Source: a virus
Virus record (IMG/VR): IMGVR_UViG_3300049043_000133
Span: 1 to 64,000 of that record
DNA: 64,000 nucleotides
Reading direction: 5' to 3' (one strand)
The position numbers were made by a program, and so were the translations under genes. Below are positions 360 to 53,913 of the stretch, piece by piece (within the stretch, counting starts at the first letter, position 1; each line of letters starts with the position of its first letter). A model generated the notes under the pieces. The model was not told where the DNA came from. It worked only from the letters and a program-made list of their open reading frames with translations, and did not search any database.

Positions 360-407
360 TTGATTTAAATACTTTATAATATAAATAATAAAGAGTATTT
401 AAATCAA
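360..407 (+). promoter_or_regulatory. Inverted repeat with late promoter in the loop, before HNH gene
   Basis: A perfect 14-bp inverted repeat (left arm 360-373, right arm 394-407) ends exactly before the ATG at 408. The loop holds TATAAATA at 380-387, the T4 late promoter core. A transcript entering from gp43 would fold the right arm into a hairpin next to the start codon. A transcript started at the late promoter would begin near 393 and lack the left arm. Confidence 0.75.
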
Positions 408-1081
408 ATGAACTATTTAAAAATTTATTGTAAGATAATTAGAAATGCTGAAAAAGAAATTGGAAAAGAAAAAATATTGATTTTTATATTGAAGAGCATC
501 ATACTTTTCCAATTTCAATTTATGGAAAAAATGATAGGATAGTTGGATTGACTCCAAGAGAACATTTTTTAGCACATTGGTTACTTTACAAAATTTGTTT
601 AAAAAGATATGGAATAAGAAATAATAAAACATTTAGTATGGGTTCTGCTTTTGCTATGATGTGTGTTATGAATGATTTGCAAGAAAGAAATTATACTTCT
701 AGAAAGTATGAAATAGTTAGAAATTGTTTATCTACCATAAGAACTGGAAAATCAAGAAATGATATGAAAGGAAAAAATATTTTGGGGCAAGTGAAGATGT
801 TATAAGACGAGGTATAGAAAAAATGAGGGAAAAGAAAACTGGAATGAAACTGGAATATCCGAAAAATAGAAAATCTTCTCCTTGTTCTTCGGAAAAGATG
901 AAAAAAATATCAGAAACTAGAAAAAATACAAGAATTAAATTTATTTCTATGAATGAAGAGGAATTTAATTTGTGGATTTCTAAAACAAAATCTTTATAGA
1001 AAGGATGGTGCAAGAAATTCAAACGTTACTCGCACACTAGTATGGAGAAACATTCCTTTGGAGAAATATTATGGAACTTGA
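408..1081 (+). CDS. HNH homing endonuclease inserted in gp43 (frameshifted)
   Basis: Free-standing HNH endonuclease between the two polymerase segments. It carries the phage HNH signature EEHHTFP...LTPREHFLAHWLL (around 495-600), similar in layout to the second psbA-intron enzyme. The frame is broken near 475, 778 and 1000 by homopolymer indels; corrected, it runs to the TGA at 1079-1081 and ends with a basic, aromatic tail (LVWRNIPLEKYYG). The predicted role is a double-strand break in a related phage's gp43 to copy itself there. About 70 bases of non-coding DNA separate it from the resumed polymerase. Confidence 0.7.
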
Positions 1082-13112: not shown

Positions 13113-13145
13113 AAGAAGACCTTTAAGTAGGGTCTTCTTTTTTTA
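13113..13145 (+). terminator. Rho-independent terminator
   Basis: Stem GAAGACC / GGTCTTC with a short AT-rich loop, followed by a run of T. Confidence 0.8.
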
Positions 13146-24596: not shown

Positions 24597-24620
24597 CATA
24601 ACTATTAATAAATAGTTATG
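24597..24620 (+). promoter_or_regulatory. Inverted repeat overlapping a late promoter-like site
   Basis: Perfect 10-bp arms CATAACTATT / AATAGTTATG with loop AATA. TAATAAATA, near the late core, spans the loop. It lies just upstream of a broken HNH gene and resembles the control elements of other endonuclease genes in this window. Confidence 0.5.
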
Positions 24621-24631
24621 AGTTATTTACA

Positions 24632-25050
24632 ACTAATATGCCGAGAAAAGAAAAACTTCTGCACGAATTGCGATTAAATACTGTAGAGTATTAACGCAAC
24701 TGCTACGAGACAAACTTATATAATGATCTAACAGAATACAAAGCAAGAACACTATGCGAATAAACAAAATAAGATGCATTGAATATCTAAATAGAAAACT
24801 TGTAAATTAGAGATAGAAGACCAATGATTCTCCTTAAAGTTTATGCTTGAAGCGAGTATCATCCAACTTGTTGCATGGATCGTGCATCGTTTGAAATCCT
24901 AATCTGTAATAGAAAAACAAGTTATCTAAAATGATTGAAGCAGACCTCTAGATGGATCTAAAATCGATACAAGAGATAATGTAAGAGTTTTGCGTCCTAA
25001 CTGCCATGCTTTAACAATACCATCGTTAAAATACACGCTGGTATATAAAC
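24632..25050 (+). pseudogene. Decayed or error-broken HNH endonuclease
   Basis: No long frame, but in order across frames: SARIAIKYCRVLTQLLRD, YNDLTEYKARTLCE, NKIRCIEYLNRKL, then IEADL, DGSKIDTRDNVRVLRPNCHALT. The last two fit the D-G...DNxRxLxPNCHAxT end of phage HNH nucleases. It sits between tRNA genes, a usual place for such elements. Confidence 0.5.
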
Positions 25051-25710: not shown

Positions 25711-25847
25711 TGACCCCCTTATGTCCTCGTCGGATTGGACATTAAATATGCCGACTGGTGTGGATGGGGAAACTCCCGCCTGGTTTCCAATTTCCAGTCA
25801 AAGAATTGGTGGCGTGCATGAAAGACCTGATGAGAGGAGTTGCATAA
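25711..25847 (+). CDS. Small conserved protein (frameshifted)
   Basis: Pieced from two frames: VLVGLDIKYADWCGWGNSRL, VSNFQSKNWWRA, then CMKDLMRGVA. The Trp/Cys-rich middle is distinctive and reads like real protein. Its end runs into the terminator stem that follows. Function unknown. Confidence 0.35.
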
Positions 25848-47035: not shown

Positions 47036-47190
47036 AAATAAATCTTAAGAAATGTAACGTTTCTTAATCCTCTACCTAACCGAGACCTATGGGGAGGTTA
47101 AACACAGTCTCTCATATCCACAGTGGAGGGTGCTGTGGAGTATAATGTATTACCAGTTCCCTGCTGGATTTACTTACCCTTTAACGAAAA

Positions 47191-47747: not shown

Positions 47748-47813
47748 AAACTAAACCAATGTGTAGTATAAATCGGGTGAACTGCTGGAAACCTAAATCG
47801 TATTGACTAACTT

Positions 47814-47857
47814 TTAACTTTATGCTATTATAAATATTAATAGATATATAAAGTTAA
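47814..47857 (+). promoter_or_regulatory. Inverted repeat with late promoter in the loop, before intron 1 HNH gene
   Basis: Perfect 10-bp arms TTAACTTTAT (47814-47823) and ATAAAGTTAA (47848-47857) with TATAAATA at 47829-47836 in the loop; the right arm abuts the ATG at 47858. Confidence 0.75.
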
Positions 47858-48746
<889 letters not shown>

Positions 48747-48800: not shown

Positions 48801-48836
48801 ATGTTACTTGACTTGTATAAATAACTCTGGTAACAT
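48801..48836 (+). promoter_or_regulatory. Inverted repeat with late promoter in the loop, before intron 2 HNH gene
   Basis: Perfect 7-bp arms ATGTTAC (48801-48807) and GTAACAT (48830-48836) with TATAAATA at 48816-48823 in the loop; ATG follows at 48844. Confidence 0.65.
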
Positions 48837-48843
48837 AAACAGT

Positions 48844-53407: not shown

Positions 53408-53452
53408 TGGTATTTATTTGTATAAATAATTATATAGTTTAAATAAATACCA
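53408..53452 (+). promoter_or_regulatory. Inverted repeat with late promoter in the loop, before HNH gene
   Basis: Perfect 12-bp arms TGGTATTTATTT (53408-53419) and AAATAAATACCA (53441-53452) with TATAAATA at 53421-53428 in the loop; ATG at 53455, two bases after the right arm. Confidence 0.8.
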
Positions 53453-53454
53453 AT

Positions 53455-53889
53455 ATGTCTAATTGGAAAATTATAAAAGAACTTGGAGTACGAACTTATT
53501 GTGGAAGAAATAGACCATACGTTATTGCAATCTGTCCTCATTGTAAAGAAGAAAAAGAAATAATGTATTATCATACAAGAAATAAATCTTGTGGATGTCT
53601 TAAAAAAGAAAGTGCTATAAAGAGGGGACAAAATCAAAGAACGGAAAATGGTCACATTAAATCTTTAATTACAAGATATAAAAAATCAGCAAAAGTAAGA
53701 AATATAGAATGGAACTTGAACTTTGATGATTTTTCTGTTATAGTAAAATCAAATTGCTTTTATTGTGGTAAAGAACCTAACTTAAGAAAGGGTAAAACTC
53801 AATACGGAAAAGTAATTCCTACAAATGGGATTGATAGAAAAATAAATTCTATTGGTTATATAAAAGAAAATTGTGTTCTATTGTATTGA
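53455..53889 (+). CDS. HNH endonuclease, apparently truncated
   Basis: 144 residues. N-terminal zinc-type motifs (AICPHCKEEKEI, KSCGCLKKES), then the HNH region CFYCGKEPNLRKG...NGIDRKINSIGYIKENC. The usual CxxCN end that should follow ENCV is cut off; a short stretch in another frame (LYCIDLQLNEF) resembles it, so an indel near 53880 may hide the end. It lies between a small gene and thyX, whose promoter overlaps its 3' end. Confidence 0.65.
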   Translation: MSNWKIIKELGVRTYCGRNRPYVIAICPHCKEEKEIMYYHTRNKSCGCLKKESAIKRGQNQRTENGHIKSLITRYKKSAKVRNIEWNLNFDDFSVIVKSNCFYCGKEPNLRKGKTQYGKVIPTNGIDRKINSIGYIKENCVLLY

Positions 53890-53913
53890 CTTGCAATTAA
53901 ATGAATTTATGAT
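53886..53913 (+). promoter_or_regulatory. Sigma-70-type promoter for thyX
   Basis: TTGACT at 53886-53891, 16-bp spacer, TATGAT at 53908-53913, overlapping the stop of the HNH gene. Confidence 0.65.

Follow-up and report, generated by a model that had tools for sequence, protein, structure and literature searches.

An HNH homing-endonuclease gene that splits gp43 raised the question of why such a gene should begin directly behind a hairpin whose loop contains a late-promoter core. The gene lies near the start of the stretch of DNA analyzed here (the window), which covers the opening 64 kb of a 92.7-kb IMG/VR record from a T4-like Synechococcus phage; all modules described below are on its + strand. 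The inverted repeat occupies positions 360-407 and is perfect, with 14-bp arms and a 20-nt loop. Its 5′ arm (TTGATTTAAATACT) spans 360-373, the late-promoter core TATAAATA lies in the loop at 380-387, and the 3′ arm (AGTATTTAAATCAA) spans 394-407 and ends at the ATG at 408, exactly as an earlier sequence-only reading had described.

The gene itself (408-1080, with phrog_655 relatives) is broken by frameshifts in this contig and is intact in orthologues such as L026. The 3′ end of another HNH gene of the window (53860-53890) likewise appears frameshifted, with intact relatives, and both cases could reflect homopolymer sequencing errors or decaying genes. The contig start is unusual in other ways. 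Positions 1-60 carry about 50 bp from inside gp43 that are repeated (SYAGAYVKEPNPGKYDW; compare 1141-1205), and after the HNH gene the window jumps to a second, different gp43 copy, whereas the orthologues L026, L041, and L039 run on into gp43B. This duplication is probably an assembly chimera, or else a product of recombination.

Like arrangements had been proposed before three more HNH genes, and this holds fully for two of them. A perfect hairpin with 11-bp arms (47813-47858; TATAAATA at 47829-47836) ends on the A of the ATG of the HNH gene in the first psbA group I intron (47858-48520), and a perfect hairpin with 12-bp arms (53408-53452; TATAAATA at 53421-53428) precedes the ATG at 53455 of an HNH/endonuclease-VII-like gene (53455-53889), the 3′ end of which is the frameshifted one. 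Thus, three of the four genes have perfect repeats around the promoter core, with the 3′ arm reaching the ATG or ending at most 2 nt from it. The HNH gene in the second psbA group I intron (PF01844; 48844-49521) has only a weak hairpin at 48806-48841, with TATAAATA at 48816-48823 and 7-bp arms (ATGTTAC/GTAACAT) that fall under the threshold for strong repeats in the later scan. The variant proposed before a broken HNH gene is present at 24602-24637 as a weak 10-bp hairpin with a 4-base loop, preceding a degenerate remnant near 24632; its promoter-like sequence, AATAAATA, is not confined to the loop and overlaps the arms. PHROG and Pfam matches to HNH and homing-endonuclease families mark the four genes as putative homing endonucleases, the match of the 53455 protein being weak.

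There are 10 + strand TATAAATA sites in the window, and only the four before HNH genes sit in such hairpins. The site at 13135 has a low-complexity 8-bp match (T-run/A-run) that gave no signal in the energy test. Folding of the RNA as drawn yielded z-scores of -5.3 (360), -3.8 (47813), -2.0 (53408), and -1.6 (48806). The start-codon region is paired in these leaders, and no clear Shine-Dalgarno sequence is present in them or inside the 3′ arm. Other RNA elements recognized in the window include a glutamine riboswitch aptamer (RF01739; 52954-53010) upstream of the 53455 region, a PhotoRC-II RNA at 47055 before psbA, and a wcaG RNA at 25721.

The explanation that we consider likely is that the module is a switch restricting homing-endonuclease expression to late infection. 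These genes would sit in transcription units that are also transcribed early. Read-through RNA would contain both arms and fold, burying the start-codon region and permitting little or no early synthesis of the nuclease. A late RNA polymerase of the gp55/gp33 type would later initiate at TATAAATA inside the loop, giving a transcript whose 5′ end falls close to the first base of the 3′ arm. Having no 5′ arm to pair with, this RNA would stay open and be translated. The commonest starting point of the 3′ arm is 4 nt past the TATAAATA core, approximately where a late transcript should begin judging from T4, and late RNA would thus be without the 5′ arm. The benefit would presumably be the avoidance of early cutting or, for intron genes, of interference with splicing.

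If this explanation is correct, the arrangement should be far more common before nuclease genes than before others, which is the comparison that the sequence-only reading had called for. We examined 20 whole cyanophage records (13 from IMG/VR and seven isolates), with nuclease genes marked by PHROG and Pfam matches and by GIY-YIG motifs. Across these records a late-promoter core lies directly upstream, with or without a hairpin, of 67 of roughly 115 homing-endonuclease genes and of 400 of about 3800 others. An initial measure, duplex-energy z-scores over 45 nt of upstream sequence, gave only a weak contrast (11/67 versus 16/400) because arms on the far side of an enclosed terminator escaped it and upstream sequence rich in G+C was scored wrongly. 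It was replaced by a helix scan and a start-exposure index, both using 70-100 nt of upstream sequence and applied to genes whose ATG follows TATAAATA by 17-31 nt.

In the helix scan, a strong repeat enclosing the promoter was found for 39 of 63 homing-endonuclease genes and for four of 107 others (p = 2e-17); the remaining 24 nuclease genes with this promoter placement, about 40%, have no strong repeat. Equal frequency before random genes, the outcome that would have refuted the sequence-only reading, was thus not observed. Of the four exceptions, two match HNH or endonuclease VII families, a third resembles GIY-YIG proteins by motif and weakly matches an HNH family, and the fourth is a small gene behind the scaffold element described below. 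We looked again at these four and at W01 48536 once the test was complete, and the nuclease-like label of some of the four was assigned only then; the counts are given unrevised. A second set of loci is not independent, having been assembled in part around these genes; it has strong repeats at 84 of 113 nuclease genes and 13 of 50 others, most of the 13 being scaffold-associated or nuclease-like and one having no known assignment.

The energetic comparison gave a similar outcome. Relative to shuffled upstream sequence, the extra energy needed to open the start region of read-through RNA has a median of 4.9 kcal/mol for nuclease genes and -0.1 kcal/mol for the others (62 versus 108 genes, p = 1e-12). 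An excess of at least 4 kcal/mol occurs at 35 of the 62 and at a single one of the 108, which matches endonuclease VII and HNH families. The contrast survives clustering of proteins (seven of 11 versus two of 60 clusters with an excess of at least 3) and removal of orthologues of the window's genes (30/54 versus 0/105). In late RNA the median cost is low and alike in the two groups, at 3.5 and 3.2 kcal/mol.

These results bear on whether the hairpins are simply ordinary leader structure, arising either from chance folding of A+T-rich leaders or as peripheral helices of group I introns. The window's G+C content of 35% and the location of two of its four genes in psbA introns would suit such an origin. 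Nevertheless, the matched other genes show no excess, shuffled and swapped arms pair at rates near 2%, and free-standing genes share the geometry, and we regard an origin of this kind as exceedingly improbable. A hairpin with an internal late promoter is commonly carried by cyanophage homing-endonuclease genes and is a general and specific mark of them. It is not strictly exclusive. Rare as the module is before other genes, a few tail genes show strong start occlusion, for example a tail sheath gene with a 38-nt gap. Neither is it confined to HNH genes, since GIY-YIG and endonuclease-VII-like genes have it too.

The arms themselves provide evidence of selection on pairing. Similar proteins of one family carry different arms, and arms pair with their own partners in 62% of cases, compared with 2.3% after swapping and about 2% after shuffling. 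Unlike arms with one geometry, from which selection had been proposed, are thus borne out by this swap test and by compensatory and G.U changes. The hairpin-promoter arrangement is kept in IMG/VR relatives. In 11 gp43-HNH leaders, 95.5% of pair cells are paired, compared with 27%-48% for slid structures; one pair occurs as C-G, U-G, and U-A, and others vary by G.U. A shuffle control on the pairs of these leaders gave no significance because most of the pairs are invariant. In L009, a relative of the first psbA-intron gene, the arms differ and complementarity is retained.

Such pairing could also be demanded by a DNA-level operator, a palindromic site bound by the endonuclease or some other protein to repress the late promoter. 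There is precedent for this, because I-TevI binds an operator overlapping its own late promoter and thereby represses it (PMC2988022), and the repeats described here do flank a promoter. A DNA palindrome, however, should tolerate G.T and A.C alike, and the mismatches are instead strand specific. Among 111 distinct promoter-proximal arm pairs from all collected loci, internal single mismatches are G.U in 23 cases and A.C in three (p = 9e-5, an optimistic value given the partial dependence among related sequences). The pairing thus operates chiefly at the level of the sense-strand RNA. Furthermore, the distance between the arms is highly variable, as many repeats have a terminator inside them, and, as noted, arms differ among similar proteins of one family. 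An operator is accordingly a very unlikely basis for the repeats.

A stronger challenge to a late-only switch comes from the position of upstream genes. In the gp43-HNH orthologues the last codons of gp43A, which encode polymerase sequence, make up the 5′ arm. Translation continues through this arm to a stop codon in the loop, 31-33 nt upstream of the ATG, and the ribosomes may to some extent unfold the hairpin of early RNA. The corresponding stop in the 53455 family is 50-51 nt upstream of the ATG and adjoins the 5′ arm. These positions would be expected of translational coupling, in which ribosomes ending the upstream gene open the hairpin and nuclease output tracks translation of the host gene, not the time of infection. 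In the psbA-intron families, by contrast, the nearest long upstream frame ends 97-119 nt before the ATG, outside the hairpin, and the hairpin is still kept. Coupling also leaves the late promoter in the loop unexplained, and in most strong cases (24 of 39) an intrinsic terminator stands between the 5′ arm and the promoter. Coupling is therefore unlikely as an account of the module as a whole, and remains a rival for the gp43-HNH orthologues.

For late-only expression, the enclosed terminator of many relatives would serve as a second lock against read-through. Relatives L042-L069 were at one stage classed as having a terminator and promoter with no hairpin. This proved wrong for most of them when longer upstream sequence revealed arms outside the terminator.

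Some relatives use a more elaborate arrangement, in which a conserved scaffold hairpin (GGGCAGCAA...TTGYGTAAGTCCC) lies upstream of the promoter and would offer the 5′ arm in its apical loop. The element consists of an outer stem (YGGG/CCCR), an internal loop with GTAAGT, an inner stem (GCAAC/GTTGC), and the apical loop, of which roughly 9-18 nt pair with the bases just before the ATG. The exact core pattern occurs in 109 IMG/VR stretches. Its two stems, P1 and P2, covary. Among 24 sequences, seven of the 10 stem pairs have changed on both sides, and none of 500 shuffles reaches the observed score. The isolate S-B05 has two copies, both with two-sided changes in the inner stem. When apical loops were swapped, the own partner was among the best and rarely first, because the loops belong to a small number of related classes. 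A scan of a genome collection with the scaffold pattern returned 11 scattered bacterial matches that lack the surrounding stem and promoter context and were dismissed as chance.

The scaffold precedes unrelated genes. Of 50 genes that follow it, 31 are GIY-YIG-like, five are of the phrog_655 type, and among the remaining 14 are further HNH genes and small genes of no known function. Strong matches to a covariance model occur in three of the 20 records, one before a phrog_655 HNH gene, one before a GIY-YIG-like gene, and one before a small unassigned gene. Searches of Rfam with the scaffolds at L060, L063, L016, and L212 gave no meaningful match even at lax thresholds. We tentatively entertain the idea that the scaffold is a new class of phage cis-regulatory RNA, that its internal loop might sense a protein, a metabolite, or the state of infection, and that it might be a cassette traded among selfish nuclease genes.

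Several genes behind the scaffold deserve mention in their own right. Proteins of phrog_5018 follow it in L310 and L323; they look PD-(D/E)XK-like on inspection and are possibly an unrecognized endonuclease family. Small lysine-rich proteins (MLNVSGIN.., MNFDCRSLNE..) follow it at L143:7188-7239 (G001) and in L286, L288, L339, and L362; no known family and no nuclease domain was found for them. In the window, an abiF RNA (RF03085; 21659-21735) lies just before a tRNA-Arg gene, and directly before this RNA is a scaffold-resembling sequence (GGCAACAG..CTGTGTAAGTCC, 17.6 bits). The same two features occur together at L184:9732-9773.

These observations extend a few T4 cases to a rule that can be tested, namely that unrelated families of selfish nucleases in cyanophages repeatedly carry an RNA lock of the late-only kind, which ordinary genes with the same promoter placement lack. 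The pattern argues that early nuclease expression is costly to the phage or to the element. It also provides a sequence signature for recognizing small nuclease genes now labeled hypothetical, supplies many natural arm pairs with which the mechanism can be tested, and exposes an apparently undescribed structured RNA that is common to unrelated homing endonucleases.

The comparison with T4 made in the sequence-only reading is apt. A hairpin with a late promoter is established for I-TevI, segB, and Aeh1 mobE (PMC2988022), and the mechanism has been demonstrated in T4 for I-TevI and e (PMC2988022, PMC3014915). An index of read-through minus late start exposure places T4 I-TevI, e, and segB at 11-13 kcal/mol and the window's four genes, in a more A+T-rich genome, at 4.6-9.6 kcal/mol. 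In the open-access literature we found no description of hairpin/late-promoter control in cyanophages; most subscription papers lay outside this search, and priority is therefore not proven. The literature search also found no paper with mapped cyanophage transcript 5′ ends.

The closest counterparts are T4 I-TevI (in the td intron), I-TevII, I-TevIII, and segB, which are also homing-endonuclease genes, whether intron-borne or free-standing, with a start that is paired on long early RNA (PMC2988022) and a late promoter whose position leaves the 5′ arm out of late RNA. They differ from the genes described here in that the arm sequences are unrelated and the window's 3′ arms have no clear Shine-Dalgarno sequence, and autorepression through an operator is a feature of I-TevI that was not seen here. 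Aeh1 mobE is likewise an HNH gene that splits a host gene and has a hairpin and a late promoter (PMC2988022), but its host gene is nrdA rather than gp43 and its protein is different. T4 e and soc apply the same RNA logic to late genes on early transcripts (PMC3014915); unlike the nuclease genes they are not selfish, and in the cyanophages examined the hairpin is rare or absent before ordinary genes with the promoter so placed. The endonuclease-like gene beside psbA in S-PM2, which from its position and sequence motifs is presumably F-CphI, also carries TATAAATA 30 nt upstream of the ATG, following a terminator hairpin, although no start-covering repeat is visible there. The cyanophage modules thus appear to use the same mechanism as T4 in another group of phages, with enclosed terminators and a scaffold RNA that go unmentioned in the T4 accounts (PMC2988022, PMC3014915). 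What is new is that most repeats also enclose a terminator, that GIY-YIG genes share the module, and that a scaffold hairpin precedes unrelated nuclease genes.
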